Source: Pseudomonas lalkuanensis (GTDB lineage: Bacteria; Pseudomonadota; Gammaproteobacteria; Pseudomonadales; Pseudomonadaceae). Taken from it: a stretch of DNA of 64,000 nucleotides. The notes below the pieces were generated by a model. That model made no database searches, had not been told where the DNA came from, and was given only the letters and a program-made list of their open reading frames with translations. A program made the translations under genes and the position numbers. The first letter of the stretch is position 1. Each line of letters begins with the position of its first letter. Positions 9,568 through 29,953 of the stretch are shown here, piece after piece. The stretch covers positions 5,188,001-5,252,000 of the forward strand of contig NZ_CP043311.1 in assembly GCF_008807375.1 (NCBI RefSeq). Reading direction: 5' to 3'.

Positions 9568-9576
9568 GGGAGCGAC

Positions 9577-11565: not shown

Positions 11566-12305
11566 TGGCCGGAGTTCCCAAGCAAGGTCTTAACCGCCTC
11601 ATAGTCAGCGCTCTGTGGCCGACGGATAGTGAATCGGATGTCGATGCGACGATTCAGCCGATAGTCTTCTTCACCATCCTGCTGTTTGCTCACGGGGCGA
11701 GTCTCGGCATAGCCGCTGACCGAGAACAGCGGTTCGCCATCCTGGTTACTCAATCTGTTTAGGCGCTCTGCCTCGGGCATCTCATTGCTCCAGAACTGCC
11801 AGAGCGAGATTGCGCGAAATGTCGAAAGCCCCCAGTTGCCCTTCCCCATAAAGCCAGGAAACGGACGGTTGTCCGTATGGCCTTCGATAAAGATGGTATC
11901 GAGGTAGTTGACTCGGTCGTCCTGGCTGATCACCTGGTTGATGACCTCACCGATCTCCAGTGCTGTCTGCTGGTAACGCGGCTGGATCTCGAAAGCGCCG
12001 GTATCAAAACCAAGTAACTCGTTTGGAATGCGCAGCACCGTATGATTTTCGCTGACCTCCACCTTGATGCCACGCTGCCGCAGCTTCTCGACTGCCTCAT
12101 CGAGAATCTGTTGCCGTACCGTTTCTGCCTTTTTCAGTTGCTCAACCTGCTGATCGAAGTCCGCGCTCTTCTCCATCAACTGAAGAATCAGGACAACCGA
12201 AGCGAGGATAAAGAGCACCAGCAGCGCCGACATGATGTCCACGAAGGACTTCCAATACGGATCCTCATCCTCCATCGGAGCGTCATGGGATTTACGCCAG
12301 CGCAT
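11562..12305 (-). CDS. zorB: Zorya protein ZorB, MotB/OmpA-like peptidoglycan-anchored stator
   Basis: 247 aa. A single N-terminal membrane helix (SFVDIMSALLVLFILASVVL) carries an aspartate (D23) at the position of the proton-relay Asp in MotB-type stators. A coiled linker leads to an OmpA_C peptidoglycan-binding domain with EGHTDNRPF, a NWGLSTFRA helix, VSGYAETRP and NRRIDIRF. The start overlaps the zorA stop by one base and the end overlaps zorC by four, so the three are translationally coupled. Confidence 0.95.
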   Translation of the reverse strand: MRWRKSHDAPMEDEDPYWKSFVDIMSALLVLFILASVVLILQLMEKSADFDQQVEQLKKAETVRQQILDEAVEKLRQRGIKVEVSENHTVLRIPNELLGFDTGAFEIQPRYQQTALEIGEVINQVISQDDRVNYLDTIFIEGHTDNRPFPGFMGKGNWGLSTFRAISLWQFWSNEMPEAERLNRLSNQDGEPLFSVSGYAETRPVSKQQDGEEDYRLNRRIDIRFTIRRPQSADYEAVKTLLGNSGQ

Positions 12306-14650
12306 CAGCGGGCCTCCAGTTCATCGACCACATTGCTGATTGCCTGCACTGCCGCATGCATCTGGTTGGCAAAGCTCATGGTCTCTTTGTTCCACTGGTC
12401 CATGCGCTCATGCACTTGATCGCGTACCTCGTTGGAGTAGCTACGCAGCCACTGTTCGGCCTGCTGCTCAACACCTTGCACCTGGCTACGCAAGGCCTCG
12501 CCCAGGGCGGTGAACTCGCCACGCACGCCTGCGAGGAACTCCTGCTGGTGGCTCCTCATTTCGCCAAATCCATTGCGCGCCTCGCTGGCGGCCTGTTCGA
12601 AACGTTGCGCGCCATCCAACAGAGCACCTTGAAGTTGCGCCAAGGCAGAGGCCTGGCTGTGCAATTGGCTAGCCAGCTGAGCATTCTGCTCACCTGCGGA
12701 CTCGATGCGCTGCGTCACGCTTTCCAGACGCTGACCGAGCAATTCGGCCGCCTGGCGAACATTGGTCGAGAGCAGGCCGAGTTGGTTGGCGCTGCTGTCC
12801 ATATGTCGGCTGCTGGCGGCGGCCGCGTCGCTGGCTTGCTGCAGGCGGCCCATCAGTTGCTGATGCTGCTCAGCCATCTGCCGGCTCTGTTGCTGAGTCG
12901 TCTGCACAGCCGTGGCAATGCCTTCCAGAAGCACCTGCTGCTGCGCGGCCATGTTCTCCAGTTGCTCATTGAAGCGTTGCTGCCGCGACTGCTCGCGCTG
13001 CTCCGCTTGCTGACCATGACCCGTCATCTGCTCATTGAAGCTGCCCAACAACTTGCCGACCGACTCCTCCAAGGCCCTCTGCTGCGCGGCGGCAGCTTCG
13101 GCGATGGCACCGATCTGCTGCTGGCTGGCCTGCCCAAGGCTGCCGATCAATTGCTGCTGCTGGGCCAGCGCGGCGGCCTGTTGTTGCTCATGGCGCTGGG
13201 CGCGTTCTTGCTCCCGCGTTTCTGCCGCCCCCATCTGCGAATCCAGCTGGGAGTTCAGCGTCATCATCAATCGGGAGAACACTTTCTCCAGATTGCCGTG
13301 TCGTTCATTGCCGGCCTCCGCCATGGCCTGCAGCTGCTCACGGCTGGCACTGGCGAACTTCTCCAGCATCGCGGACTGGCTCGCGCCAGCCTCGGCCAGC
13401 GTGCGCTCGAACATCGCCTGGCGCTCCTCATCCCGTCTTTGCGCGGAGCTGAGTTGTGTATCCAGTTGGCCAGTCAATCCGCTCATTAGCTCGCCGAATC
13501 GCGTCTCCAGCTGCTGCTGACGCTGATCTGACGAAGCAGAAAGTCGCTCCATCTGGGCCTGAAACTCGCCGCTCTGCTGGCGGGCAGCCTCCTGTTGACG
13601 CCCCTGTTGATCACTCAGGGTATGGAACAGCTGATTGAGCCGCTCCGTCATGCCGCCCACGGCGGCATTCACATCTGCGGCGGCCTGTTGCATCAGATTG
13701 CCTTGCTCGCGCCCTGCCGAGGTCAGGCCCTGCGTGAAGTTGCTCACCAGTTGTTCCAGCACCTGGGTGGATTGCTGACCGGCGGTGCTGACAAGCGTCT
13801 GAATGGCAGGTGCCATGATATTGTTCAACGCATCGGTGAGTGCTGTCTGCATCGCCTCGTTCATGCCCACGAGACTTTCCTGCAGGCGCTCGCCGATACG
13901 TTCGTGCAACTCCTGCAGGGCCACTTTGCTCTCGCGACTGTAGTCGGCGATGTGCACCAGCGACTGCTCGGCGGGGATCAGCGGATACAGCGCATCGATC
14001 CGGTGCTGCAGATCCTGTATGCGCCCTAACGCCCAGCGCTCGGTGATCTTCTCGATCAGGTTCAGTAGCAGGCTGAATCCCACACCCCATACCGACGCCA
14101 TGAAAGCAACTGCTGCACCCTGGATCATCACGGAGATGCCTGCCCGCAATTGATCGACACCCGCGCTACTCTCCAGCTTCAAATTCTGCAAGCCGATGGT
14201 CAGGCCCACGAACGTCGCCAGCACGCCCAGGCCTACCAGCAAACCAGGCAGAGAACCGAAGAAGCGGCTTCCGCTCAGGCCAGGCGCAAGCGTTCGCGCA
14301 TTGAAAAAATGCTCGGCATCTAGGGTATTGAACAGATGCTTGTGATCACTGGAGCTGACCAAGCTGTCGTCGAACTCATGCCATAGCGCACCGATTAGTT
14401 TGACCTTGAGCCCGAGTGCTTTCTGCAATGTCTCTCGACGATTCAGCGCCAAGTTTTCACGGCTCTGCCCGGCGATCAGGTTGTTCAGCGCTCGCATACG
14501 CGCCTTGAAGCTCCGCCCGCTGACTATCAACGAGATTACCGAGTAGGTGAAAAGGGCTGCCATGATCAGCCAGAACACGACACCCAGGGCTTCGGTACTG
14601 CCCCCCTTCAGCAAGGAAAAGTTGGGCAACAAGTGATTCAGAAATTCCAT
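12305..14650 (-). CDS. zorA: Zorya protein ZorA, MotA/ExbB-like proton channel with long cytoplasmic tail
   Basis: 781 aa. Membrane helix 1 lies at about residues 21-43, helices 2 and 3 at about 138-160 (GVLATFVGLTIGLQ) and 173-198 (GAAVAFMASVWGVGF), matching the MotA/TolQ/ExbB fold. From about residue 230 to the end runs an exceptionally Gln/Ala-rich helical tail, with many QQQ runs and repeated Q/A/E heptads. In the ZorAB structure the ZorA tails bundle into a long intracellular shaft that carries the signal from the envelope to ZorC/D. First gene of the operon; its start lies 32 bases downstream of an hsd remnant. The ribosome site (GGACC) is weak. Confidence 0.95.
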   Translation of the reverse strand: MEFLNHLLPNFSLLKGGSTEALGVVFWLIMAALFTYSVISLIVSGRSFKARMRALNNLIAGQSRENLALNRRETLQKALGLKVKLIGALWHEFDDSLVSSSDHKHLFNTLDAEHFFNARTLAPGLSGSRFFGSLPGLLVGLGVLATFVGLTIGLQNLKLESSAGVDQLRAGISVMIQGAAVAFMASVWGVGFSLLLNLIEKITERWALGRIQDLQHRIDALYPLIPAEQSLVHIADYSRESKVALQELHERIGERLQESLVGMNEAMQTALTDALNNIMAPAIQTLVSTAGQQSTQVLEQLVSNFTQGLTSAGREQGNLMQQAAADVNAAVGGMTERLNQLFHTLSDQQGRQQEAARQQSGEFQAQMERLSASSDQRQQQLETRFGELMSGLTGQLDTQLSSAQRRDEERQAMFERTLAEAGASQSAMLEKFASASREQLQAMAEAGNERHGNLEKVFSRLMMTLNSQLDSQMGAAETREQERAQRHEQQQAAALAQQQQLIGSLGQASQQQIGAIAEAAAAQQRALEESVGKLLGSFNEQMTGHGQQAEQREQSRQQRFNEQLENMAAQQQVLLEGIATAVQTTQQQSRQMAEQHQQLMGRLQQASDAAAASSRHMDSSANQLGLLSTNVRQAAELLGQRLESVTQRIESAGEQNAQLASQLHSQASALAQLQGALLDGAQRFEQAASEARNGFGEMRSHQQEFLAGVRGEFTALGEALRSQVQGVEQQAEQWLRSYSNEVRDQVHERMDQWNKETMSFANQMHAAVQAISNVVDELEAR

Positions 14651-16666: not shown

Positions 16667-18241
16667 TCAGACTTCCTCAGGCTCCGGCTCATGTTCGAGC
16701 AGGTTGAGCTCAAGATCGGCTCTATCGACCCACTCCTCGGTAATCTCGCCCTTCACTGCCACGCCCAACTGGCGGAAATCGCTGACCTGTTTGACCAGGT
16801 TGCCTTTGCCATGCACCAGTTGGTCGCAGGCCTTCTTGTAAGCGTCCTGAGCTTTTTCCAGGCTTTTACCCACCCCATCCATGCTGCCGAGGAAGGTGCG
16901 CAGCTTGTCGTAGACCTTGGCCGCGCGCTCGGCCAGTTCCGCGGTGTGCTTGTTCTGGTCTTCGAAGCGCCACAGCTGGCGCACGATGTTCAGGCTCGTC
17001 AGCAAGGTGGTCGGCGTGGCAACCAGCACGTTCAGCTCGATGGCCTTCTGGAACAGGGTCTCATCAGCCTTGAGCGCCTCGACGAAGGCCGATTCGATCG
17101 GCACGAACATGAAGACCATCTCCGGAGCATTCAACCCAGGCAGGTCGAAGTAGTGCCGGTCAGAAAGCTCCTTGATGCGCTGGCCGACGGCCGCCACATG
17201 CTCGGCCAGGGCTACGCGTCGCTCGGTGTCATCCTCGGCGTTGATGTAACGGGTGTAGGAGTTGAGCGACACCTTGGCGTCGATGATCAGGTGCTTGCCC
17301 TGCGGCAGGTGGACGATCACGTCCGGGCGCTTGCGACCCTCTTCATCGGTGAAACTGACCTCGCGCTCGAAGTCGCTACCCTGGATCAGCCCTGAGCGCT
17401 CCAGCACGTTTTCCAGGATCAGCTCACCCCAATTGCCTTGAGCCTTCTTCTGACCCTTGAGGGCGGTCGTCAGGTCCTGGGCCTCCTGGGTAATCTGACG
17501 GTTGAGCTCTTTCAGGTGCAGCAGCTCTTGCGTCAGCGCGGCTTGCTGTTGAACGTCCTTGTGGTGGATGTCCTCAACCTTGGTGCGGAAACCTTCGATT
17601 TGCTCGCGGAAAGGTTTGAGCAGTGCATCGAGAGACTGCTGGCTGTGCTGCGAGAAGGCTTGGCCCTTGGCTTCGAAAATCTGCCCCGCCAGTTGCTCGA
17701 ATTCCAGCTTGAGCTGATCGCGGCTCTCCTTGAGCAGCTGTTGCTGTTCGGCGAAATGCTGTTGCTTCTGCTCCAGGGTGCTGCTCAGGGTGGCGTGCTC
17801 CTTGGACAGGTTGGCGAACTTTTCCTGCAGCACCTCACGGCTGTTTTGTTGGCGCTCATGGGTCTGTTTGAGTTCCTCATGTTGCTGCAACAGCTGTGCA
17901 TGCTGGGCCCGTGCGGCGCTGGCCTGACTCTGCGCCTCCGCAAGTTTGGTGCCGAGCTGCTTCAGCTCATCCCGAATCCCGGTCGTTTCCTCCTGGGCGT
18001 ATCCGACCTGGCGTTGCAGTTGCTCCACATGCGCCTTCTCCGCCCGCGCGGCAGCGGTCAGCTCGCGCAATTCCAGCTCCTGCTGCTGGCTGATGGCGCG
18101 CTGCTGATCGAGCAGCACCTGGCAATCCTGCAGCCCAGCCTGCGCCTCTCGCCGACGCATCAACTGCCAGAACAGAGCTACGCCCAAGGCCAGCACCAAG
18201 GCAACTGCGAGTACCCACAAAGACATTCCGATATCGTTCAC
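16667..18241 (-). CDS. rmuC: DNA recombination protein RmuC
   Basis: 524 aa from a GTG at 18241, seven bases after AAGGAGA; an ATG at 18226 is the alternative. An N-terminal membrane helix (LWVLAVALVLALGVALFW) is followed by a long coiled coil to about residue 230 and then the RmuC domain with KGQKKAQGNWGELILENVLE, RPDVIVHLP and IIDAKVSLNSY. The latter is a restriction endonuclease-like D...K core. RmuC limits recombination at inverted repeats. A chromosomal rmuC normally sits elsewhere; this copy is in an island operon with a secreted repeat protein and an M15-like protein, so it may be a second, defence-linked paralogue. Confidence 0.92.
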   Translation of the reverse strand: MNDIGMSLWVLAVALVLALGVALFWQLMRRREAQAGLQDCQVLLDQQRAISQQQELELRELTAAARAEKAHVEQLQRQVGYAQEETTGIRDELKQLGTKLAEAQSQASAARAQHAQLLQQHEELKQTHERQQNSREVLQEKFANLSKEHATLSSTLEQKQQHFAEQQQLLKESRDQLKLEFEQLAGQIFEAKGQAFSQHSQQSLDALLKPFREQIEGFRTKVEDIHHKDVQQQAALTQELLHLKELNRQITQEAQDLTTALKGQKKAQGNWGELILENVLERSGLIQGSDFEREVSFTDEEGRKRPDVIVHLPQGKHLIIDAKVSLNSYTRYINAEDDTERRVALAEHVAAVGQRIKELSDRHYFDLPGLNAPEMVFMFVPIESAFVEALKADETLFQKAIELNVLVATPTTLLTSLNIVRQLWRFEDQNKHTAELAERAAKVYDKLRTFLGSMDGVGKSLEKAQDAYKKACDQLVHGKGNLVKQVSDFRQLGVAVKGEITEEWVDRADLELNLLEHEPEPEEV

Positions 18242-18295
18242 AGCTTCTCTCCTTCTGCTCACCTGCCGATTATGGCTGGCTTGAATGACACCACC

Positions 18296-18353
18296 AGGAT
18301 ATGTAGCGTAGAGCGACGCATCCACGGTGTTTACCCGTACAGGTAAAGTTTTC
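18296..18353. promoter_or_regulatory. Repeated operator-like element, copy 3, with palindrome, between rmuC and the WYL gene
   Basis: Aligned to copies 1 and 2: AGGATATGTAGCG at the left and TACAGGTAAAGTT at the right. Here the right part is a perfect inverted repeat TTTACC-N6-GGTAAA at 18330-18347. It lies between the divergent rmuC operon and the WYL regulator gene, 24 bases before the latter's start. WYL regulators of the BrxR/CapW type commonly repress their own promoter through inverted repeats, so this is a candidate autoregulatory operator. Confidence 0.65.
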
Positions 18354-18370
18354 GAGCAGATGGAGAAGCC

Positions 18371-19246
18371 ATGAAGCGCAAGCAATCGATCGAATCAGTA
18401 CGCTGGGATCTGGCATTACGCTATCGCCTGATCGAGACGGTGGCCTGGTGGGAAGGCCGGCTGACAACGGGACACCTGATACAGAGCTTTGGTATCAGCC
18501 GGCAACAGGCATCCAAGGACATCAACACCTACATCAGCGAGCATGCGCCGAAAAACCTGACATATGACAAGCACCTGAAGGGGTACGTACCCAGCAAGCA
18601 GTTCAAGCCCCTGTTCATTGATGACAGCGCCAGCGCCTACCTGCACCTGCTCAATCAGAACCACGACCGCGCCCCGCATATCGAGGGTCTGGCCCTGGCC
18701 TACGCCCACACCGAGGTGCTGCGGGTCCCGGATCGCTCGGTCAAGCCCGAGGTGCTCCGTCCCATTCTGCGTGCTTGCCGCGAAGGACTACGTCTGGAGT
18801 GCGAATATGTGTCCTTCACCACCCCAGACGGCGAAGCCCGCCTGATCGCTCCGCACACTCTGGTCTTCACCGGCATGCGCTGGCATGTACGCGCCTACTG
18901 TGAGAAGAACCGTGATTACCGAGACTTTGTCCTGAGCCGCTTCAGGGGCACCCCGGAACTCATTGACGACGTATCCGCAAATACCCGCGAGCAGGACGGC
19001 GGCTGGAATAGCCTGGTTAAGGTCATCATCGAACCGGACTCGCGCCTGAAGCCCGATCAGAAAGTCATCATCGAAAACGACTTCGGCATGCTCAACGGAC
19101 AACTGGTGATCGACACCAGAGGTGCACTGGTGCAGTACGTTCTTCAGCGCTACCAGATTGACCCAACCAAGGTGCATGCCAAAGCCACGGCGCAGCAGAT
19201 CGTGGTGGCGAACCTGGATGAACTTCGTTCCTGGTTGTATCAGTGA
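18371..19246 (+). CDS. WYL-domain transcriptional regulator, BrxR/CapW-like
   Basis: 291 aa. A winged helix (residues about 15-75: WWEGRLTTGHLIQSFGISRQ) is followed by a WYL domain with LECEYVSFTTPDGEARLIAP, LVFTGMRWHVRAYCEKNRDY and RDFVLSRFRG, then a WCX-like C-terminal extension. The total length and order fit the BrxR/CapW family, which represses phage-defence operons until a ligand is sensed. It starts 24 bases after a palindrome in the divergent promoter, so autoregulation plus control of the rmuC operon is likely. Related elements upstream of other operons suggest a wider regulon. An inverted repeat GTTTGT-N6-ACAAAC follows the gene at 19266-19283. Confidence 0.9.
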   Translation: MKRKQSIESVRWDLALRYRLIETVAWWEGRLTTGHLIQSFGISRQQASKDINTYISEHAPKNLTYDKHLKGYVPSKQFKPLFIDDSASAYLHLLNQNHDRAPHIEGLALAYAHTEVLRVPDRSVKPEVLRPILRACREGLRLECEYVSFTTPDGEARLIAPHTLVFTGMRWHVRAYCEKNRDYRDFVLSRFRGTPELIDDVSANTREQDGGWNSLVKVIIEPDSRLKPDQKVIIENDFGMLNGQLVIDTRGALVQYVLQRYQIDPTKVHAKATAQQIVVANLDELRSWLYQ

Positions 19247-19324: not shown

Positions 19325-19531
19325 TTAGAGACGCGGTGCTAGCCACTGCTTGAACCGGGCGACTAGCACTTCGAGTTCTTTAGCCGGGCGCCGCTCAATC
19401 TGCCTTGAGCCACAACCGGGGCATTGCTCGACCCAATCATTGGGAGACAGTTCATCACTGCGAGGCACCACGGTGCGCCGCCACTGACAGGCTGGACATT
19501 GCAGGACGAAAGGACGCATGGGAATAGGCAT
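19325..19531 (-). CDS. Small zinc-ribbon protein, paralogue of the one at 25187
   Basis: 68 aa with two CPxC knuckles (CPACQWRRT and CPGCGSRQIERR) separated by about 25 residues, followed by a helical C-terminus. GGAG lies eight bases before the start. It resembles the 70-aa protein at 25187-25399 throughout (both begin MPIP, share the two knuckles, then ERRxA). It is the last gene on the minus strand, 76 bases after the YaaW-like gene, so the dynamin/patatin operon is bracketed by the two paralogues. The role is unknown. Confidence 0.75.
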   Translation of the reverse strand: MPIPMRPFVLQCPACQWRRTVVPRSDELSPNDWVEQCPGCGSRQIERRPAKELEVLVARFKQWLAPRL

Positions 19532-19607
19532 TCGACGCTCTCCGATGTGCGAATGCCTGTCACCTTGCCCTGGCAGCGCGACAAAATAGGCCGCGCCGAA
19601 TACAAGA

Positions 19608-20369
19608 TTAACCGGGGTGCCGAGTCTCCAAGCGGATCAAGGCAATCAGCACTACGCAAGGGACGGTGATGCGTAAGGCGGGACCTGTAAGGCTGTAGGC
19701 TCCCCAGATACTTCCCAAGGCCAAGCCAATGGGCCCCAAGGCTACCGAGGCCCCGCGGCTCGCCAGGAACTGTGCAGCTCCAGCGGCGGCGCTTCCCATG
19801 GACATTCCGGTGAACACCGCACCAGCTCCAAAGGCAGAGCTGGCCATCGCAGCGGTCAGCACCTGTGCCACCGTAACTCCGGTATCGGTTGCTCCCATAA
19901 CCGCCTCTCGCAAGGCAGCGATCTGCTCTCGGCCAGGCATCCCCTCAACCTTGAGAGCACGACGCAAACTCTCAAGCTCATCGGTAGAAAGCTTGTCCCA
20001 GAGAGTCTCAAGTAGTTGAACCAGTACGCGACGCTCAAGTTCGACAATTGAATCCCCGTCTTGGCGCTTCCCTTTGAGGTGATCGAGCACGTCGACTACG
20101 ATCGACGGCCAAGCGGCACCTTCGGAACGCAATAGGTTAACAACGCTGTTACCTCCGAAATGCAAGAGTTCACTGACCAACAGCGCCAACGTCGCCGTCG
20201 AGTAATCACCCTGAGCCTTCGCCTGAACCAACGCCTTGCAATTGCCGGCAGACAACATCAGGCGCCCCTTACCACCGTCGGTGATGTAGTCCACCAAAAG
20301 ATCGAGATACACCCTGTCTGCTTTGGCCAACAGCTGTTGCAATGCCTGGGCCCCGCTTTCGTCACTCAT
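19608..20369 (-). CDS. YaaW/UPF0174-like membrane-associated protein
   Basis: 253 aa. The N-terminal half is helical and includes ELLHFGGNSVVNLLRSEG, closely like the ELxHFGGxSxxNxLR signature of E. coli YaaW (UPF0174/DUF3944). The C-terminal half is a Gly/Ala-rich hydrophobic zipper (FGAGAVFTGMSMGSAAAGA) and ends ALRITVPCVVLIALIRL, matching YaaW's AYRVTIPAV ending. The biochemical role of the family is unknown; membrane insertion is likely from the zipper. The gene starts 9 bases after patatin ends. In this operon it may supply a membrane-active component. Confidence 0.8.
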   Translation of the reverse strand: MSDESGAQALQQLLAKADRVYLDLLVDYITDGGKGRLMLSAGNCKALVQAKAQGDYSTATLALLVSELLHFGGNSVVNLLRSEGAAWPSIVVDVLDHLKGKRQDGDSIVELERRVLVQLLETLWDKLSTDELESLRRALKVEGMPGREQIAALREAVMGATDTGVTVAQVLTAAMASSAFGAGAVFTGMSMGSAAAGAAQFLASRGASVALGPIGLALGSIWGAYSLTGPALRITVPCVVLIALIRLETRHPG

Positions 20370-20378
20370 TGCCTACCT

Positions 20379-21455
20379 CTACTTCAACTTCGCCATGGCA
20401 TCCGCCAGTGCTTTATCGGCATGGACATTTTCCTGCTCGGCAACCCCCAGTGCAGCTTCAGAGGTACGTAACTCATTTCGGCTCCTTTGAGCGTCCATGA
20501 CTCTACCTACGCAAGCCTTAGTGTCGCGATAGCCCTGCTCGATCCAGGAGGGAATCTTTTCAGCGTCAAATCCGAGTAGATCCCGTGCACCACTCAGCGG
20601 CCCGGTGGCACGATTGAGTGTTTCTCCGGGGCGGATTTCCAAGATTGTGGCGCCAGGAAAGTCCTGTCGGCTCCATGGAGAGCCATCACTGAGGTGAGTA
20701 ACGATGATCAGATTGCAGCCAGCCTCCAGCAATGGAGCAATCGGGGTATTACCCTGCATGGTCTGCCAGCCACCCTGGCCACCATCGGAGTAACGTTGGC
20801 CGTTGCTCATCCGCGCCTTGAATAGCACCGGAATTGCAGCAGAGGCCAACAGGACTTTCTTTCGCTCTTCCGAAGGCAGGGATTGGATATGCACAAAGTC
20901 GGAGTTCGGCGTATTGGCAAACCCCAGTTCAGCCTTGAACGCCGATAGCAGGTCAGCCACGCCGCCATTGCTCTTGTAAAGCGAGACATACAGCGGCAGG
21001 CCCTTTTCCAGCTCCTCAGAGACCAGGTACTCATCCATCAAGGCCTTGAGCGGCTTGTCGTCGAGCACGCTGTCTTCAAGAAATTCCAGCCACTCGGGCA
21101 GTTCATAGCCCAGCCGCTGGGCAATCTCCTGAGCCGCAGATACTGCTCCCAGCGCCAGCCCGGCCCCCTGAAGACGCAGACCCGCAGCCGCCAGCAGCAC
21201 CAAATAGCCCGGAACCTTCATATTCAGCGGAGACTGCCTGGCCAGGCGTCCCCAAAGCTCTTCCAGGCGCGCGATGGCTACATCCAGTGACGGCGAAGAA
21301 GCCAGCACACCGCCGTTCAAAGCGCCGATACTGGCCCCGGAAACCGCGTCGATGCGAGTGCCCAGCTCACGCAAGGCCTTGAGCACACCGACCTGGTAGG
21401 CGCCCTTGGCACCGCCACCGGACAGGACCAAGCCGACCTTCATTGCCTCAGCCAT
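20379..21455 (-). CDS. Patatin-like phospholipase
   Basis: 358 aa with all patatin elements: the oxyanion loop LSGGGAKGAYQVGVL, the nucleophile elbow SGASIGALNG (Ser42) and the catalytic Asp in YSDGGQGGW. No signal peptide or beta-barrel is present, so it is a cytoplasmic acyl hydrolase expected to attack membrane lipids. A strong GGAGG ribosome site precedes the ATG at 21455, which overlaps the upstream gene by eight bases. Patatins serve as membrane-damaging effectors in several anti-phage systems such as CBASS CapV. Here no cyclase is adjacent; the neighbours are a dynamin GTPase and a YaaW-like protein. Confidence 0.93.
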   Translation of the reverse strand: MAEAMKVGLVLSGGGAKGAYQVGVLKALRELGTRIDAVSGASIGALNGGVLASSPSLDVAIARLEELWGRLARQSPLNMKVPGYLVLLAAAGLRLQGAGLALGAVSAAQEIAQRLGYELPEWLEFLEDSVLDDKPLKALMDEYLVSEELEKGLPLYVSLYKSNGGVADLLSAFKAELGFANTPNSDFVHIQSLPSEERKKVLLASAAIPVLFKARMSNGQRYSDGGQGGWQTMQGNTPIAPLLEAGCNLIIVTHLSDGSPWSRQDFPGATILEIRPGETLNRATGPLSGARDLLGFDAEKIPSWIEQGYRDTKACVGRVMDAQRSRNELRTSEAALGVAEQENVHADKALADAMAKLK

Positions 21456-22359
21456 TCTGCACCTCCGTAAACAGCTCGCTGATCAAGGTCTCCGTGAAGC
21501 GTTGCGCGGAACCCAGTCGCGGGACCTGCAGCGGGAGATCCTGCGGTTGCTGGGAAACCACGAAACTAAACGGGTTGCGCTCAGGGTCGGCCCAATCGCC
21601 CAGGTACCCCAAGGCATCGCTGGCATCAGCCAGCACATGCCGCCCCTGCGGCCGCGCCAGCCAGCGCTCGCGGGTACCGATTCGTTCTCCCACGCTCAAG
21701 CCGGCGTCCTTACTCAACTGGACAATGGCCCGGTTAGCCAGCAGCTCCAGTTGCTTTTGGCGCTCCTGTCCAGTCACCCGTAGGCAATGGTCACCGAACG
21801 CTCCCCAACGCAGTTCCTCGAGTGCCGCATAACAGCGCCCAGATAGCGAGAAGCTACTGAAGCGGCCAGCAGCCCACTTACTGAAAACCTCATCGAGTTG
21901 GAGCTGCGCTTGCTGCAAGCTGCCGATCCGAACAACTTCCTGCTCCAGTGCGCTGCACCGATCCCCCAGCCGCTGGGATAACAGCTCCAATCTTTGGCGG
22001 GTTTCAACTGCGTAGCCAGCGATCTTGGCGACATCCAGCTGCAGCGCATTTACCCGCTGATTCACCCTGACGATGGTGTGATTGCTTTTCGCCAGGGATT
22101 CGCTCAGCTCCTTGAGCCACTGCAAAGCCCCCTCCACGCTATCGGTTAAGCTGGCGTTGATCTCCGCCTGATGTCGCGCTCCCTGCCCAGTAAACCCGTC
22201 GTACAGGCGCGAGAAGAAGGCAGTTCGCCCTGCGATATAGCGCTGGCGCTCGCGAGCTACGTCGATACCGTTGGCGAAATCGACAACGAACTTTTCCGGC
22301 AGGCAAGTGAGCAATTGGCAGATTTCAGAATGCTGGTTCAGTGCGTTGGCATCACTCAT
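21448..22359 (-). CDS. Helical partner protein of the dynamin/patatin operon, unknown
   Basis: 303 aa, almost wholly helical with coiled-coil-like stretches (residues about 60-160, including NQRVNALQLDVAKIAGYAVE) and no membrane segment. A more compact part contains AGRFSSFSLSGRCYAALEEL. The start overlaps the dynamin end by four bases (ATGA) and the end overlaps patatin by eight, so all three are translationally coupled. In E. coli the dynamin-like crfC (yjdA) is followed by yjcZ, a protein of similar size; whether this is a YjcZ relative needs an alignment. A linker between GTPase and lipase is one possible role. Confidence 0.8.
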   Translation of the reverse strand: MSDANALNQHSEICQLLTCLPEKFVVDFANGIDVARERQRYIAGRTAFFSRLYDGFTGQGARHQAEINASLTDSVEGALQWLKELSESLAKSNHTIVRVNQRVNALQLDVAKIAGYAVETRQRLELLSQRLGDRCSALEQEVVRIGSLQQAQLQLDEVFSKWAAGRFSSFSLSGRCYAALEELRWGAFGDHCLRVTGQERQKQLELLANRAIVQLSKDAGLSVGERIGTRERWLARPQGRHVLADASDALGYLGDWADPERNPFSFVVSQQPQDLPLQVPRLGSAQRFTETLISELFTEVQNG

Positions 22360-24764
22360 GCCACAGCCTCCTCGATAGAGGGTTGGACGTCGTTCTTGAG
22401 TTCTTCGCTGTCCCTCTGGATTGCCGGCACATTGCGCTTGAGGCCAGCAAGCCGCTGAGCCAGGGCTTGCTGTTCATCCCGGCTGTTTTGCTTATCAAGG
22501 AGGCTTTGCGCCAAGTCACTACGGATGTTTTCCAAGGTGTACTTGAGCTGCTCGAAGAACTGGTGAACACCGGTCTCCAAAGGCGCCTTGATAGTGACGC
22601 TGGTCGTTTCGAGTAGCTCCTCGAACAACATGTCAACCGAGCCATTGATTCTTTTCTTGATTTTATTGATATCGACCTCGAAGTAGCCCTCGGTTGTCTC
22701 GTAGGACTCCCACCCCCAGTCGGACGTATTAAACCAGCTGCAAATGGTCCCCCACGCCCCACTACTGCGGCGGTAGCGCGTTACAGGGCGACGCCTGCTG
22801 TCGATCACCTCTCCCAACAACTCACTTGCAGAGTATTTAAAGCTAAGCGGAGCGGTATCCGGAAGCCGAATATCGACTGCAAAACCGCTTCGGTTAAAAC
22901 GCTCATTGAGCGCTTTGATCAATTCGTTTGCTTCACCTTTGATATTCTGAGAAAAACTTTCTCGAAACTTTCCAAGCAAAATCTCGATATCGTGCGCCAT
23001 GATCTTTTCGCCGTCAGCGATTATTTTCTGAACGCCGTTCTCAATCGCTTTGACCAGTGTTTCAGCTTCTTCCTTACTGCTGAGAGCAATCAACGGATGG
23101 CTCTCGTCAAACTCATAACCGAAGCCCTCCCGGTCACGCTCGGGAAAACCCCAAAAAGCCCTGAATAGGCTCCTAACACCCATTGGCGACAAGCTTTTTT
23201 GCGCGTCTGCACGTGCCTTCGCCTGCTTCTTTTCGCTCGCTTTCCCAGCCTTGAATTCAGCCTCGATTTCCCCTTCGATGCCTTTTCGAATGGCATCGAA
23301 GATTTCCCCCATTTCGGTATGGATTTCTTCCAGTACCTTCTTAGCCTTCTCCTGGCTTTCCGACTCCAAGCTTTTGACCTGCTCGACGTCATTGAGCAGA
23401 GAATTAATCTGCTCCTCGAGTTCCAGGGAGCTCTTAGCCAGCGCAGTGTCACGAACCTCCAAGAAGCGGTTGAGCCGGGAAGCGATATCCACCAGCTTTG
23501 AAGCCGCGGAGGCGATAGCAAGCGTTGCAGCTTGCCCATGGGCCATGCGGATCACGTTATCCAATGGGGCGCTAAACAGGGATTTCTTCCATAGCATGTC
23601 AGCCCTGCGCAGGACTTCTTCGGCATTATCAATGGACTCTTCCCAGCCCATTCCTAGAACCAACTCACCGAAATCAGCCACCCAAGCATGGTCAGCGGAC
23701 AGGCCTCGACCATTAGCGAGCTCATGGCGGGCGCGATTAGCCAGGTACCCCCAACGCGACGAAACGGGAAATACGTGCTCACGCTTTAGCCGCCTACCCA
23801 TCAAGGTATCGGCGACAAACGCCTGGATCTGTTCAGCACTGTCGCCATGTCGATCCTTCTGGTCAAACTTGTTGACCACCGCGTACATACGACCACGACA
23901 AGTCTCAGAAATGATCTCCAGCTCCTGACGCACCTGCTCATCGGCCTCTGACTTGAGCTGGGTGAAATCGAGGACGGCCAACACTGCAGAAGCCTTCTTC
24001 AATTGATCCTGCAGCATCTTGCGCAGATGTGGCTGACCGGATTCATTGGGCCCAGGAGTATCAAGAAGGGTTAGACGGCCGCCCGCCTCTGTCATCTCGC
24101 TCAAATGAGCGAAGCGCACTTCGATAACCGGCAGCTCATGAACGTTGCCATAGCTGGAAAACGGAAACTCCACGTCTAGTGCTGCGGACAAGCGCACCAG
24201 ATCATTAAGGTTCTTGAGGAAATCGAAAATCGCTTCAGGCCCCTCATAGCGGTTTCCGAATCGTTCCTGCCGCTGGATCATGCCCAATAACTCAAGCATG
24301 TCATCGGTATGTTCGAGACTATCCAGGGCTTGCTGACCGGCTGGGCTGCGACAAACCTCATACAACTGGCCAAGCAGGTCGTTGATGGGGGCATTATTGT
24401 CCAGACGCAGCAACGGCTCGAGCTGCTCGGGGGTATGGCGTATCAGGGTCGGCAGAGCGGTCATTGGGCGATTGCGATTCGGCAGCACTTCGGTACCGAC
24501 AATCGCGTTGATGGTGGTGGACTTACCGGCCTTCATGGTCCCTACGACCGCCAACACCATCTCCAGGCTTTCCAGCTTGGCCCGCTCACCACGCAACATC
24601 TCGATGTCCTTGCCGATCGTGTCGCGAGAGAACGTCTGGTGTCCGCCATCCTGTTCCTCGACCACCACGCCAGGCTCAGCCTGCATCCGCTCAAGCAGGT
24701 CGATTTCCACATCCAGAAGCCTGCGTGCTTCCTCCTGAAGAATGGTGATGCTGTTTTCGTGCAT
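22356..24764 (-). CDS. CrfC (YjdA)-like dynamin-family GTPase
   Basis: 802 aa from the ATG at 24764, preceded by AAGGAGATGAC. The GTPase domain is close to E. coli CrfC: GTMKAGKSTTINAIVGTEVL (P-loop at about residues 75-83), NRNRPMTALPTLIRHTP (switch), LLDTPGPNESGQPH (G3) and VVNKFDQKDRH (G4). Then come a long helical region (about 430-560), a mid segment with FRAFWGFPERDREGFGYEF that could be a membrane-touching paddle, and a helical C-terminus. E. coli CrfC binds the replication clamp and affects chromosome positioning. Here it heads an operon with a helical protein, patatin and a YaaW-like protein, a context that points to membrane-linked defence. Confidence 0.9.
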   Translation of the reverse strand: MHENSITILQEEARRLLDVEIDLLERMQAEPGVVVEEQDGGHQTFSRDTIGKDIEMLRGERAKLESLEMVLAVVGTMKAGKSTTINAIVGTEVLPNRNRPMTALPTLIRHTPEQLEPLLRLDNNAPINDLLGQLYEVCRSPAGQQALDSLEHTDDMLELLGMIQRQERFGNRYEGPEAIFDFLKNLNDLVRLSAALDVEFPFSSYGNVHELPVIEVRFAHLSEMTEAGGRLTLLDTPGPNESGQPHLRKMLQDQLKKASAVLAVLDFTQLKSEADEQVRQELEIISETCRGRMYAVVNKFDQKDRHGDSAEQIQAFVADTLMGRRLKREHVFPVSSRWGYLANRARHELANGRGLSADHAWVADFGELVLGMGWEESIDNAEEVLRRADMLWKKSLFSAPLDNVIRMAHGQAATLAIASAASKLVDIASRLNRFLEVRDTALAKSSLELEEQINSLLNDVEQVKSLESESQEKAKKVLEEIHTEMGEIFDAIRKGIEGEIEAEFKAGKASEKKQAKARADAQKSLSPMGVRSLFRAFWGFPERDREGFGYEFDESHPLIALSSKEEAETLVKAIENGVQKIIADGEKIMAHDIEILLGKFRESFSQNIKGEANELIKALNERFNRSGFAVDIRLPDTAPLSFKYSASELLGEVIDSRRRPVTRYRRSSGAWGTICSWFNTSDWGWESYETTEGYFEVDINKIKKRINGSVDMLFEELLETTSVTIKAPLETGVHQFFEQLKYTLENIRSDLAQSLLDKQNSRDEQQALAQRLAGLKRNVPAIQRDSEELKNDVQPSIEEAVA

Positions 24765-25186
24765 GTCATCTCCTTGAACGTAGCCCCTTTCCCGAGGCCA
24801 ACGAATTACGGGCGAGCTGTATCGGTAGAACGCCAGAACAGTTCGATCCTGATATCCCAGCATCGCGCTGAAGGCCTACTGCCAACGCGCGATAGGTAGA
24901 AGCAAAAAAATAAGTTGGAGAGTTTGGTGATGCTGCTGGGCACGCTAATTAATCGCCGGGGAGCCAATTCCATTGGATGAGCAGCTTGGGGGGAACTCGC
25001 CTACCTCATCGAGTTAGGGGAAGCCAGGACCAAGCCAACACATCGTATCCTTCAATATTGGGATTGCTTTAGCTTGCTGGAGGTTGTCCAGCACATCTCG
25101 TCAGCCGATTGGCGCCAGAGGGAAAGCAAGCCTACCTCGGCGGATGGCTTTTTGCCATGCAACAAAAGCCTCGAATTCGCAGCCGG
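24765..25186. other. Intergenic leader of the dynamin operon
   Basis: About 420 bases, lower in GC than the surrounding genes, between the second zinc-ribbon gene and the dynamin start. No gene was found. An A-rich stretch near 24903 and several AT-rich blocks could hold the promoter of the dynamin operon, but no consensus is clear enough to mark. Confidence 0.5.
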
Positions 25187-25399
25187 TCAACCTCTATCAA
25201 GTCCGAAAATCCGTTCGATCCTGGCCCTGAGGATCTCGGTCTGAGAAGCCGACCGCCGCTCCAATATGTCGTATCCGCAGTGCGGACACTTGGCATACCA
25301 GTCTCGCCCCATAATCAGTGCGTCACTGAGCGGGATGATGGTCTTTTTCCAGAAGCAACGGGGACAGCAAAGCGTGTAGGGCATCGGAGGTATAGGCAT
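25187..25399 (-). CDS. Small zinc-ribbon protein, paralogue of the one at 19325
   Basis: 70 aa: CCPRCFWKKTIIPLSDAL, then CPHCGYDILERRSASQ, giving two Cys pairs for one zinc, and a short basic helix at the end. It aligns end to end with the 68-aa protein at 19325. It precedes the dynamin operon on the same strand, with a 420-base gap, and is divergent from the AAA+ module across a region rich in inverted repeats. Duplicated zinc ribbons on both sides of a module suggest either a shared adaptor or a past duplication of the flank. Confidence 0.7.
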   Translation of the reverse strand: MPIPPMPYTLCCPRCFWKKTIIPLSDALIMGRDWYAKCPHCGYDILERRSASQTEILRARIERIFGLDRG

Positions 25400-26693: not shown

Positions 26694-28841
26694 ATGTGCA
26701 GTAAGACCGTCCGCGCCGCGGGACCGCACTCTGATGACATCAGCCCGCTCACCCTGAGCTGGATCTTTACCTTGATGCTCGACCTGGGCGGACACCGGCA
26801 ACTAATTGGCGACCGGGGATTCAACGACGACGCCCTCGCCCACGAATTGGGTGTAGCGGAGCTGGAGGAACAGTTCGAAGGGAGGCACTTCAGTTTCGAT
26901 GAGGATGAAGAGGACGAACCGCGCCCAAAGCGCGCGAGGAGCTTCCGACAGCAAGCAGTTGCCCGCCTGAAGACCGAACAACGTCTTTTCCTGCACGATT
27001 TTCCTACCCCGAGCTATCCAGACAATCTGGGGGAGAACCTCTTCCAACTGACGCAGTTGATTGGCCTGGACGAGATTGATCGAGCCCTGCTTGGCTTTTG
27101 CGTGCTCATGCACAGCGACGCGCTGCTGGAAGAAGCCACTGACCAGCTCGGCCAGGTCGGATTCAACCGGACGCTGCGCGTGCTCTCAACCTTGCTCAGC
27201 TACCCACCAGAGGCAATCAGGCGACACCTCTCCGCCGATAGCGCGCTGGTACGCACCGGTCTCATCGAAGTAAGCATGACTCGCACCTACCGCTCGGGCC
27301 TCATAGACCGCCTGGGTATTGGAAACAAAGACCTCCTTCAGGACTTGCGTTTTCACAAAGGCTCCCCCATTGGGCTGTTCCAAAGCGCATTCCGTAGGGC
27401 TCCTAAAGGAGAGCTCTCTGCGGAAGACTATCGCCATTTGGCGCTCCCACTGTCCATTGCGCGCCCTTATCTAAAACGGGCGCTCACGGAGGGAACGCCA
27501 GGGGTCAATGTGCTGATCTATGGCCCGCCAGGAACCGGTAAGAGCCAACTGACCCGCCTGCTGGCAAGCGAACTGAGCGCTGAACTCTACGAGATCGCCT
27601 GCACCAACGGAGACGGTGACCCCATCGACAGCCGCGGACGCCTTTGCGCGCTACGTACGGCCATGGGAATTCTCAATCAGCAGGCGACACTGCTGGTGCT
27701 TGACGAGATCGAAGACCTGTTCAGCGAGCCGGGGACCTTCTCCCCTGACCAAGGCAATCGCAAGGGCTGGATCAACCGAATGCTGGAGGAGAATTCGCTG
27801 CCATGTTTCTGGCTGACCAACAATATCCAAGCCCTGGACAATGCTTATATCCGTCGCTTCGACCTGCTATTAGAACTCGAGAATCCGCCCAAGGCCGAGC
27901 GTGAACGGATCATCCGCAAATCCGGCGGTCAGCTCACCGCCGCCCTGATCCAACGTATGGCCGGCCACGAACATCTCACACCGGCAGTAGTCACTCGCGC
28001 GCTGCGAGTAGCCGAAAGCGTGCGTGTAACCTCCGACGCGCCCGCCATGGACCAGGCCGTCGAATACCTTGTGGACGCCACCCTGCAGGCACAGGGCTTC
28101 GATAAGCTCGCGCGAATACAGGAACAACAGCTTCCGGCCTTTTACTCACCGGAGCAGAGCAATACCGATGTTCCACTAGCAGGGCTTCTGGAGGGCTTGC
28201 AGCACAATCGCGACGCAAGGCTGTGTTTCTACGGTCCACCAGGCACCGGCAAGACCGCGTTCGGTCACTGGCTGGCGAGGGAAATTGGACGACCACTACT
28301 GATCAAGCGCGTCTCCGATCTCGTATCGCCCTACATTGGCATGACCGAGAAGAATCTTGCCCGTGCCTTTCAACAGGCGCGAGAGGACGATGCCGTCCTG
28401 CTCTTGGACGAAGTAGATAGTTTCCTTCAGGAACGTCGCCATGCACGGCATTCCTGGGAGATCACCGCTGTGAACGAAATGCTGATGCAGATGGAAAACC
28501 ACCGCGGCCTTCTCATCGCCTCGACCAACCTCATGGACGATCTGGACCAAGCGGCACTGCGCCGCTTCGACCTGAAAATCAGCTTTGGCTACCTGCGCCC
28601 AGAGCAGGCCAGTGAGCTGCTTCATCTGCACCTGGAACAGATGGGACTCGACACCTCCAATACCGAACTGGATGTGAAAGTAAAACGGCTTGAGCGCCTG
28701 ACACCTGGCGATTTCGCCACTCTCGCCCGCCGGGCCCGCTTCAGGCCCTTTGCTGATGCCGATGCGTATTACCACGCCCTGCTTTCGGAGCTGGCACTCA
28801 AGGAAGCACCACCGTCACGCCCCATAGGCTTCGTACACTGA
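26694..28841 (+). CDS. Double-AAA+ ATPase (CDC48/FtsH-like modules)
   Basis: 715 aa. About 260 N-terminal residues, with an acidic stretch (FDEDEEDEPRPKRARSF), precede AAA domain 1 (GPPGTGKSQ near 280, LLVLDEIEDLF, NAYIRRFDLLLEL) and AAA domain 2 (GPPGTGKTAFG near 516, LLLDEVDSFLQERR, ALRRFDLKISF). Both domains keep Walker A, Walker B and an arginine near the sensor region, so both could be active. There is no protease domain or membrane segment. It is likely an unfoldase or remodeller acting with the two small upstream proteins, in an operon that probably ends with a WYL regulator 101 bases downstream. Confidence 0.9.
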   Translation: MCSKTVRAAGPHSDDISPLTLSWIFTLMLDLGGHRQLIGDRGFNDDALAHELGVAELEEQFEGRHFSFDEDEEDEPRPKRARSFRQQAVARLKTEQRLFLHDFPTPSYPDNLGENLFQLTQLIGLDEIDRALLGFCVLMHSDALLEEATDQLGQVGFNRTLRVLSTLLSYPPEAIRRHLSADSALVRTGLIEVSMTRTYRSGLIDRLGIGNKDLLQDLRFHKGSPIGLFQSAFRRAPKGELSAEDYRHLALPLSIARPYLKRALTEGTPGVNVLIYGPPGTGKSQLTRLLASELSAELYEIACTNGDGDPIDSRGRLCALRTAMGILNQQATLLVLDEIEDLFSEPGTFSPDQGNRKGWINRMLEENSLPCFWLTNNIQALDNAYIRRFDLLLELENPPKAERERIIRKSGGQLTAALIQRMAGHEHLTPAVVTRALRVAESVRVTSDAPAMDQAVEYLVDATLQAQGFDKLARIQEQQLPAFYSPEQSNTDVPLAGLLEGLQHNRDARLCFYGPPGTGKTAFGHWLAREIGRPLLIKRVSDLVSPYIGMTEKNLARAFQQAREDDAVLLLDEVDSFLQERRHARHSWEITAVNEMLMQMENHRGLLIASTNLMDDLDQAALRRFDLKISFGYLRPEQASELLHLHLEQMGLDTSNTELDVKVKRLERLTPGDFATLARRARFRPFADADAYYHALLSELALKEAPPSRPIGFVH

Positions 28842-28942: not shown

Positions 28943-29953
28943 TTGCCCGCTACATCCACCCGCAGAACACTCAGCCGCCAGTGGGAGTTGCTCAAGCTGC
29001 TGCCAAACCGAGCCCCTGGCATCACTGCCTCCGAAATCCTCGCACGCTTGGAGGACTCCGGACACAGTACTTCCAAGCGCACAGTCGAGCGCGACTTAAT
29101 CGAGCTCTCCCAGATATTCCCCTTGCAATGCAATGACAAGGGCACGCCCTACGGCTGGTACTGGACCCCAGGTCAATCCAGCGAGCTGCCCGGCATCACT
29201 TTGGGTGAGGCGCTTACGTTAAGTTTGGTGGAAGACAGCATCAGACCATTGATTCCCGGGTTCATGCTGAAAAGCCTGGAGCCCCGCTTCAATCAGGCAC
29301 GAAACAAACTTCAAGCATTGAGTGATGAAAGTGCCTCGGCTCGCTGGGTGGACAAAGTGGCAAGCGTACAGCCGACCCTCAGCGTGATGCCGCCTGAGAT
29401 CAACCAGGAGCATCTGGAGACTGTCCAGATGGCGCTACTCGACGACAGGCAGATCTCCAGTCGTTACTACTCAGCCCATAAGAACCTGACCCACGAGCTA
29501 ACCCTCAACCCCCTGGGTCTAGTGCAGAGAGGTCAGGTCACCTATCTGGTGGGCAGCGCGGAACCTTTCGACGATGTGCGCCTGTTTGTGCTGCATCGGT
29601 TCGAGTATGCAAAGCTTCTGGAGTCACCAGCGAAGAAGCCTGCCGGCTTCAGTCTTCAGCAATACATTGAAAGTGGCGCCATGCAATTTGGTATTCCGCG
29701 GCAGATTCAGTTACACGCCTGGGTAAGTGACAGCCTGGCTCGGCTGCTCCACGAAACCCCGCTGTCTGCGGACATGACACTGACGCATCAGGAAGACGGA
29801 GCATCCCTCACGGCTACCGTGAACGATACCTGGGAGTTGAAGTGGTGGATTCTTTCCCATGCCGGCTCGATCCAGGTGCATGAGCCAATCGAGCTACGCC
29901 GAGAGCTCCGAGCACGCATGACATCCGGACTGAGCTTGCACGAGACGGACTGA
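28943..29953 (+). CDS. WYL-domain transcriptional regulator
   Basis: 336 aa from a TTG at 28943, the only start in a frame opened by TGA at 28925, with AAGGACG upstream. An HTH (ITASEILARLEDSGHSTSKR, then TVERDLIELS) is followed by a helical linker and a WYL domain (RQISSRYYSAHKNLTHELTL, NPLGLVQRGQVTYLVGSA, VRLFVLHRFEYAKLL) and a C-terminal WCX-like domain. It belongs to a different branch from the regulator at 18371. It ends the AAA+ module and is a candidate for binding the inverted repeats at 25444-25583. Confidence 0.88.
   Translation: MPATSTRRTLSRQWELLKLLPNRAPGITASEILARLEDSGHSTSKRTVERDLIELSQIFPLQCNDKGTPYGWYWTPGQSSELPGITLGEALTLSLVEDSIRPLIPGFMLKSLEPRFNQARNKLQALSDESASARWVDKVASVQPTLSVMPPEINQEHLETVQMALLDDRQISSRYYSAHKNLTHELTLNPLGLVQRGQVTYLVGSAEPFDDVRLFVLHRFEYAKLLESPAKKPAGFSLQQYIESGAMQFGIPRQIQLHAWVSDSLARLLHETPLSADMTLTHQEDGASLTATVNDTWELKWWILSHAGSIQVHEPIELRRELRARMTSGLSLHETD

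Follow-up and report, generated by a model that had tools for sequence, protein, structure and literature searches.

The 64,000-nucleotide (nt) stretch of the Pseudomonas lalkuanensis genome analysed here (contig NZ_CP043311.1, positions 5,188,001 to 5,252,000; hereafter the window) contains an operon on the minus strand at 25399-19325, built around genes for an RdcA/CrfC-like dynamin GTPase, its partner RdcB and a patatin-like phospholipase. These three genes, in this order, form the conserved unit, which we call the triad. The triad qualifies as a good candidate for a membrane-attacking immune system that has so far gone unrecognised, because the operon is tightly conserved, lies among anti-virus genes here and in several other bacteria, and has a close relative in nearly half of the complete Escherichia coli genomes searched. 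Our analysis supports its gene content and order, its active-site motifs, its co-inheritance and the defence neighbours of several copies. In our preferred reading, to which we assign a probability of roughly 0.6, the triad is a membrane-attack module whose most likely role is protection against phages, either through abortive infection or through local destruction of membranes; the window adds a JukA sensor to it.

All frames of the operon are open. The GTPase gene (22356..24764, minus strand; 802 amino acids (aa), with a longer start possible at 24863; Dynamin_N) overlaps by 4 nt the gene for the 303-aa RdcB/YjcZ protein (21448..22359, minus; PF13990), which in turn overlaps by 8 nt the gene for the 358-aa patatin (20379..21455, minus; PF01734). 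After a gap of 9 nt follows an optional fourth gene, encoding a 253-aa YaaW/UPF0174-like homologue of JukA (19608..20369, minus; PDLC04111). An accessory zinc-ribbon protein of 68 aa with two CPxC motifs is encoded at 19325..19531 (minus), and a paralogous ribbon of 70 aa, likewise recognised from its sequence, at 25187..25399 (minus), 422 nt upstream of the dynamin gene. The initial annotation, made from the DNA alone, had described four overlapping or nearly touching genes flanked by related CPxC ribbons, and this layout is borne out, a single iterated profile matching both ribbons. A WYL-domain regulator of 291 aa (18371..19246, plus; Pfam WYL, E 4.5e-14) is convergent with the operon and may control its expression.

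To survey relatives, 24 RdcB proteins were aligned, one genome per GTDB species was scanned, and the best 80 of 113 confirmed relatives were analysed. Identity to the RdcB of the window separates them into two groups. The first comprises 28 loci at 40-67% (L010-L037) from Pseudomonas, Gallionella, Chromatiaceae, Comamonadaceae, Aquaspirillum, Pantoea, Erwinia, Budvicia, Escherichia albertii and metagenome-assembled genomes (MAGs) of other labels; the second, 52 loci at 27-37% (L038-L089), is the core rdcAB of the Enterobacteriaceae. A patatin gene directly follows RdcA-RdcB in 28/28 loci whose RdcB is at least 40% identical to that of the window. None of the 52 core loci has one, 47 of them being judgeable (at least 1.1 kb of downstream sequence) and five (L041, L053, L059, L070, L072) ending within 314 nt of rdcB. 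Some of the loci are not independent of one another, L011/L012 and L023/L024 being close copies. Across the 28 triads the gap between RdcA and RdcB ranges from -13 to +17 nt and that between RdcB and patatin from -35 to +18 nt, with overlaps in 24 and 23 triads, respectively. The distance matrices of the three proteins correlate at 0.83-0.90 (25 loci; for each pair, 0 of 2,000 permutations as high), and the triad thus travels as a unit. Order and tight spacing are conserved beyond chance, since they are kept at a median pairwise identity of 40% for RdcA (46% for RdcB, 53% for patatin) and the distances are correlated. The initial annotation had expected all four genes to co-occur. This proved correct for RdcA, RdcB and patatin but not for JukA, which follows in three of the 28 relatives and in the window, and the four-gene system was rejected as the conserved unit.

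A more divergent triad, L152 from a Pseudomonadaceae genome (G424), keeps the gene order with an RdcB only 22% identical to that of the window. The Pfam scan of this locus matched Dynamin_N and Patatin, with YjcZ just under its cut-off (24.5 vs 27). Immediately upstream of the triad is a WYL gene; the genes downstream we take, by name and without a family match, to be hsdR, an ATPase gene, hsdM and hsdS. The RdcB of L152 has the same sequence as a database protein named Pseudomonas matsuisoli and retrieves 34 database proteins at E ≤ 1e-5, itself included, whose named sources include Pseudomonas, Alcanivoracaceae and Halomonas; no divergent RdcB was found in the 364 genomes of the class that were searched. 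In L037 (1290-6356), a MAG labelled Synergistaceae, the RdcA frame extends to 1,688 aa, which suggests a fusion or a duplicated dynamin.

The RdcA of the window matches Pfam Dynamin_N (PF00350) at 62.2 bits (cut-off 27; E 8e-17) and the NCBIfam model for CrfC (PRK09866) at 586.2 bits over residues 1-794, below the equivalog cut-off of 1146; by sequence it is classed as a CrfC homologue and not as a CrfC equivalog. In the alignment the G1-G4 motifs are intact (P-loop GTMKAGKST at 75-83, G2 Thr102, G3 DTPG at 235, G4 NKFD at 298), and G1 and G3 are identical in all rows that cover them, including 18 core rows. An Arg/Trp tip loop occupies approximately residues 658-687. The structural model predicts a bacterial-dynamin-like fold, with BDLP, SynDLP and mitofusin among its best structural matches, so that domain, motifs and predicted fold together point to membership of the dynamin family. 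RdcB covers its profile completely (PF13990, positions 1-272 of 272; 223.5 bits, cut-off 27; E 4e-66). Its model contains a predicted helix of about 104 residues (60-163); a Foldseek search with this model gave no match at E ≤ 0.001, and its matches among solved structures are of coiled-coil type only (best E 0.0016). The initial annotation had recognised the dynamin and described its neighbour as a helical 303-aa protein; the description was apt, and the protein it left without identity is a full-length RdcB/YjcZ. Since the dynamin is a CrfC/RdcA homologue and the 303-aa protein is RdcB, the two make up one known functional pair. In the covered passages of PMC6510439, E. coli experiments show that RdcA interacts with RdcB and forms dimers or oligomers, and that it activates DgcE, a membrane-bound cyclase, through direct contact; the pair regulates DgcE and biofilm. 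GTP appears to be inhibitory and nucleotide-free RdcA activating, and in the model published there GTP-bound RdcA cannot dock. The initial annotation had proposed that the GTPase senses the replication clamp, an idea that goes back to a CrfC activity reported in the part of PMC6374313 covered. A clamp-sensing role for RdcA-RdcB is possible; the genetics in the covered part of PMC6510439 rather suggest that the pair activates a membrane enzyme directly and in a GTP-dependent manner.

The patatin matches PF01734 at 90.7 bits (cut-off 27.7; E 2e-25). It has an oxyanion motif GGGAKG at 13-18, Ser42 within GASIG and Asp224 within DGG, confirming the Ser/Asp dyad of the initial annotation and marking the protein, by its motifs, as a probable patatin phospholipase. 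The corresponding motifs GGGxxGAY, GxSxG and DG(G/A) are intact in 30/30 triad rows aligned (the window, the 28 loci and L152).

The fourth protein matches the PADLOC model for JukA (PDLC04111) at 142.5 bits over residues 10-249 (E 3.7e-42; the model has no curated cut-off). Its earlier assignment to YaaW/UPF0174 is thereby sharpened, and an identity as YaaW only was rejected, given 52.8 bits, below the cut-off, for NCBIfam PRK10236; its best match to a solved structure has an E value of 0.18. According to the covered part of PMC13282480, JukA is the sensor of the jumbo-phage-killer (Juk) system, whose effectors are diverse and include phospholipases. JukA follows the patatin in three other triads (L017, L029 and L036), at 39-57 nt compared with 9 nt in the window. 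In L029 it is spread over two reading frames, and in L036 it is followed by JukB (E 4e-112). Three of the 25 JukA-less triads (L027, L035, L037) have less than 1 kb left after the patatin. JukA-profile matches, many of them partial, occur in 60 of 398 genomes of the family. RdcB and patatin are absent from 18/18 JukA regions read in 16 Pseudomonadaceae genomes, with a single RdcA match of 18 bits. Since JukA stands beside 3/28 triads and also in regions without the triad, the Juk module has joined the triad in some lineages. The small zinc ribbon is a recurrent companion of the triad, being present in 9/28 triad loci vs 0/52 core loci (p 3e-5, a value that ignores kinship). Small CPxC ribbons also occur near three JukA loci without a triad (L133, L137, L139), so this small protein may accompany Pseudomonas defence islands more generally.

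The triad has a patchy distribution. It is present in one of 18 genomes of the genus group of the window, and RdcB is found at E ≤ 0.001 in 6/398 family genomes. Three of these carry the full triad (the window, G658, and G614, which is probably the same genome as L013), one has the divergent triad, and two give weak matches in short loci without a triad (L128, L129). In the phylum, the YjcZ family was detected in eight of 398 genomes (six above the cut-off), and a patatin of the cassette type at E ≤ 1e-30 in one of 388, namely that of the window; no such patatin without RdcAB was seen among these 388 genomes at the same threshold. In E. coli the element is common: the E. albertii triad is covered to at least 80% in 2,426 of 5,426 complete genomes (RefSeq, a biased sample in which coverage does not equate to open frames), and 3,370 of 3,371 places are chromosomal. 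The four E. coli regions that we read all lie on island-type stretches, three of them bordered by a tRNA-Ser gene, and all four have antirestriction, radC/yeeS-type and CbtA-type genes downstream. Upstream there is a GTPase gene in three (together with cah in two) and iron-uptake genes in the fourth. The radC/yeeS-type and CbtA-type genes also mark CP4-44 of strain K-12, which holds no triad and has flu, yeeR and yeeS in the slot. Among plasmids, 43 records match RdcB, the weakest of which (~30% identity, chromosome-sized) are probably core copies; a distant DNA search with the whole locus returned 38 plasmid records, none covering more than 80% of the query and the 15 listed covering 3%. Of two plasmid copies read, one has a triad annotated whole. 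In the other, on an Enterobacter plasmid (L150:10870-13404), RdcA and RdcB are open and the patatin is split by an IS3-type insertion sequence.

The operon stands among defence genes, as the initial annotation had stated. In the window, the adjacent Zorya genes resolve into a complete type I system (ZorA1, ZorB1, ZorC1 and ZorD1; 6529-14650, minus), supported by very strong matches in PADLOC. Several other loci have WYL, restriction-modification (R-M), BREX (bacteriophage exclusion) or JukB genes nearby. For the flanks of the triads, 164 proteins of at least 220 aa from 26 loci were collected (L012 and L023 being left out as close copies); six at locus ends were dropped, and the remaining 158 were scanned against PADLOC at E ≤ 1e-15 in two halves, in which 143 and 35 families matched, 25 of each listed. 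WYL model PDLC01457 matched 13/158 proteins (8 + 5 by half). The matches among those listed include type I methylases and specificity subunits, mad2/mad3, BrxC, PglX, a type III methylase, JukB and a DRT-type (defence-associated) reverse transcriptase. As a control we scanned 88 of 497 core flank proteins, from nine of the 52 core loci hand-picked from a random draw of 20 loci; 22 families matched, with WYL PDLC01457 in none and PDLC01652 in two of the 88 proteins. The contrast between the triad flanks and these hand-picked core flanks is supportive only. WYL genes are present at 14/28 triad loci vs 7/52 core loci (Fisher p 0.001, again ignoring kinship), and four triad loci (L023, L024, L031, L037) have less than 1.3 kb upstream of rdcA. 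WYL genes of the same type as in the window (858-932 bits) occur at the Pseudomonas triad loci L010, L013, L014 and L017.

By analogy with the E. coli pair, which docks on the membrane enzyme DgcE, we propose that RdcAB docks on and activates the patatin. RdcA and the coiled-coil RdcB would bind the enzyme and hold or assemble it according to the nucleotide state of RdcA. Infection would cause a fall in GTP or a disturbance of the membrane, upon which RdcA-RdcB would gather the patatin into clusters on the inner membrane and start the hydrolysis of phospholipids. The cleavage would end the infection, with either the cell or the phage's membrane structures as the price. In the window, JukA may provide a second input from the early vesicles of jumbo phages. 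Both the GTPase gating of the patatin and the role in phage defence are inferred.

Several observations weigh against this proposal. For RdcA, RdcB and the patatin, the PADLOC scan returned neither a full-length match nor a strong one specific to a system, and the tip of RdcA is modelled at low confidence (predicted local distance difference test (pLDDT) blocks of 33-57). RdcB had no match in phage records, and the viral contigs confirmed 0/221 pattern matches. Only one of the four E. coli regions read contains an R-M system (type I), the others having adhesion (cah) or iron-uptake genes. Defence-type genes are also found beside the core: the control flanks match mad3 (7), mad8 (4) and mad2 (1) as well as type I, II and IIG methylase models (1 each), and by profile search the seven WYL genes of the core loci (L038-L044) lie directly upstream of rdcA, that of L038 being recognised by Pfam at 24.5 bits (cut-off 21.8).

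These data can also be read in other ways. RdcAB might act on signalling or the cell surface and the patatin on lipid turnover, as a module for cyclic di-GMP signalling or envelope remodelling that defence islands, as collectors of accessory genes, merely picked up. The regulation of DgcE and biofilm by core RdcAB (covered passages of PMC6510439) would fit such a role, as would the cah autotransporter gene that adjoins the triad in two of the four E. coli regions and on one of the plasmids read; but no diguanylate cyclase label occurs among the neighbours in six annotated regions, and the patchy accessory distribution together with WYL, R-M and BREX neighbours in several families favours defence, so that we regard this as unlikely. 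The phospholipase could instead kill cells or recipients as a protection against plasmids, conjugation or rival islands, in keeping with the location of the triad on chromosomal islands (tRNA-Ser in the proportion given above) and on some plasmids and with the failure to find it in the phage collections. The defence neighbours seen (R-M, BREX, Zorya and Juk) are nevertheless systems known mainly as anti-phage, and a target other than phages seems improbable to us.

The operon could, finally, simply be a Juk system, in which JukA is the sensor, the patatin the phospholipase effector and RdcAB a passenger or helper. The short distance between patatin and JukA in the window and the succession of JukA and JukB in L036 agree with this, and phospholipase effectors with JukA are a reported class in the covered part of PMC13282480. 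We give this explanation little credence, however, as 25/28 triads show no JukA (with the three short loci noted above), the JukA regions read elsewhere have neither RdcB nor patatin, and the invariant partner of the triad patatin in the loci read is RdcAB. A membrane-attack module directed against phages therefore remains our preferred reading.

The triad resembles several described systems in part. It shares both protein families and their order with E. coli RdcA-RdcB (YjdA/CrfC-YjcZ), but the core pair lacks a patatin and regulates a cyclase, and core RdcA (three rows aligned) has neither the WGxxC tip motif nor an equivalent of residues 522-548 of the RdcA in the window. In CBASS (cyclic oligonucleotide-based antiphage signalling systems), a CapV-type patatin serves as membrane-damaging effector, which is the part proposed here for the triad phospholipase. 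No cyclase was matched in the four operon proteins, though, so that the combination of a CD-NTase (cGAS/DncV-like nucleotidyltransferase) cyclase and an effector appears to be lacking; the CBASS lipase model reaches only 25.5 bits on the patatin (cut-off 200), and the GTPase pair would take the place of nucleotide signalling. Eleos, to which we take the LeoA/LeoBC models to belong, likewise places a dynamin-type GTPase in a defence context, and the dynamin of the window gives a partial LeoBC match (37.9 bits); it differs in having a dynamin pair instead of one dynamin with RdcB and patatin, the LeoA match (19.7 bits) falling on the same window dynamin. With Juk, the window shares what appears by sequence to be a homologue of the JukA sensor, directly after the phospholipase, as L036 shares both JukA and JukB after its triad. 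In contrast, the PADLOC scan of 14 proteins of the window yielded no JukB match, most triads show no JukA, and the covered part of PMC13282480 does not bring up RdcAB in connection with Juk.

The initial annotation had known of no described system of this composition. For the triad this holds, as we found no description of it as a system in the open-licence literature searched (titles, starts of abstracts and passages). The JukA half, in contrast, is not unknown, because it is a described sensor against jumbo phages with reported phospholipase partners (PMC13282480, in part). Within the passages covered, a study of O118 E. coli lists patatin-like phospholipases and rdcB among the genes of an island (PMC13182975); the main text on DefensePredictor contains no dynamin, patatin or GTPase terms, its phospholipase passage concerning a CBASS-like system (PMC13092281); and a review mentions dynamins in general terms only (PMC12926258). 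The system-level claim for the triad is accordingly new to the literature searched, and its JukA component was already known.

The relationship between triads and core RdcAB bears on how the pair evolved. In a tree of RdcA+RdcB, the core loci (18 of 52 sampled) form one clade with 100% support in the SH-like approximate likelihood-ratio test (SH-aLRT), and the Budvicia triad joins this clade, also with 100%. Rooting on the divergent triad L152, whose branch is very long, the core thus lies among the triads. A tree in which the other triads group together against core plus divergent triad was not rejected (approximately unbiased (AU) test, p 0.074). Nor was a like constraint on RdcB only, with 12 of the 34 divergent RdcBs as outgroup (p 0.697; the constrained tree scores higher); in the RdcB-only tree, the core joins the Pantoea and E. 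albertii triads instead. We therefore dropped as a certainty the derivation of core RdcAB from triads. Core RdcAB may be a domesticated relic, and a history in which it lost the patatin and was retargeted to DgcE is hypothesised to be the simpler one if the divergent triads lie outside. The wider proposal is that RdcAB is an ancient immune switch gating a phospholipase by GTP state or membrane contact, and that the two form a widespread, unrecognised defence system. Chromosomal E. coli RdcAB/CrfC, today a regulator of cyclic di-GMP, would be what domestication left of it, having lost the killer enzyme and been retargeted to DgcE. This proposal is tentative, and we would at present bet against it.

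Further modules are present in the window, in which a tRNA scan found no tRNA genes. At a threshold of 1e-5, PADLOC matched neither of the two genes directly downstream of Zorya (6492-6007 and 6014-5109), which may form a pair of Zorya companions not described so far. An SNF2-type (DrmD/BrxH-like) helicase at 786-3659 (minus) is closest to DrmD models (PADLOC E 1.5e-96), and a 278-aa gene near it (4957-4121) has no PADLOC match. An IetA-like ATPase (26694-28841, plus; PADLOC E 8e-45) and the WYL regulator that follows it (28943-29953; WYL match) possibly constitute a separate defence module. The protein at 30138-31725 matches candidate model PDC-M41A (PADLOC E 2e-77), which we take to be a TcmP-type candidate, beside a protein that presumably resembles the phage Gp37/Gp68-type (DUF5131) protein. 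The gene at 16667-18385 (minus), in the same island, presumably encodes an RmuC-like protein; the Shield system of Pseudomonas reportedly uses an RmuC domain. Elsewhere, in Pantoea and Erwinia (L029, L032 and L036), the triad is immediately preceded by two long genes (~655-880 aa); one of those in L036 matches helicase-type models, among them PDC-M27C, DpdE and DrmD.

The gating idea can be tested in the triad at once, because E. coli RdcAB has been dissected genetically and mutants that fix its nucleotide state exist. If our reading is correct, an undescribed immune operon for membrane attack would be carried by almost half of the complete E. coli genomes examined, and a debated E. coli protein pair, assigned to replication under the name CrfC and to cyclic di-GMP signalling under the name RdcA, would gain an evolutionary explanation as a recruited immune switch.

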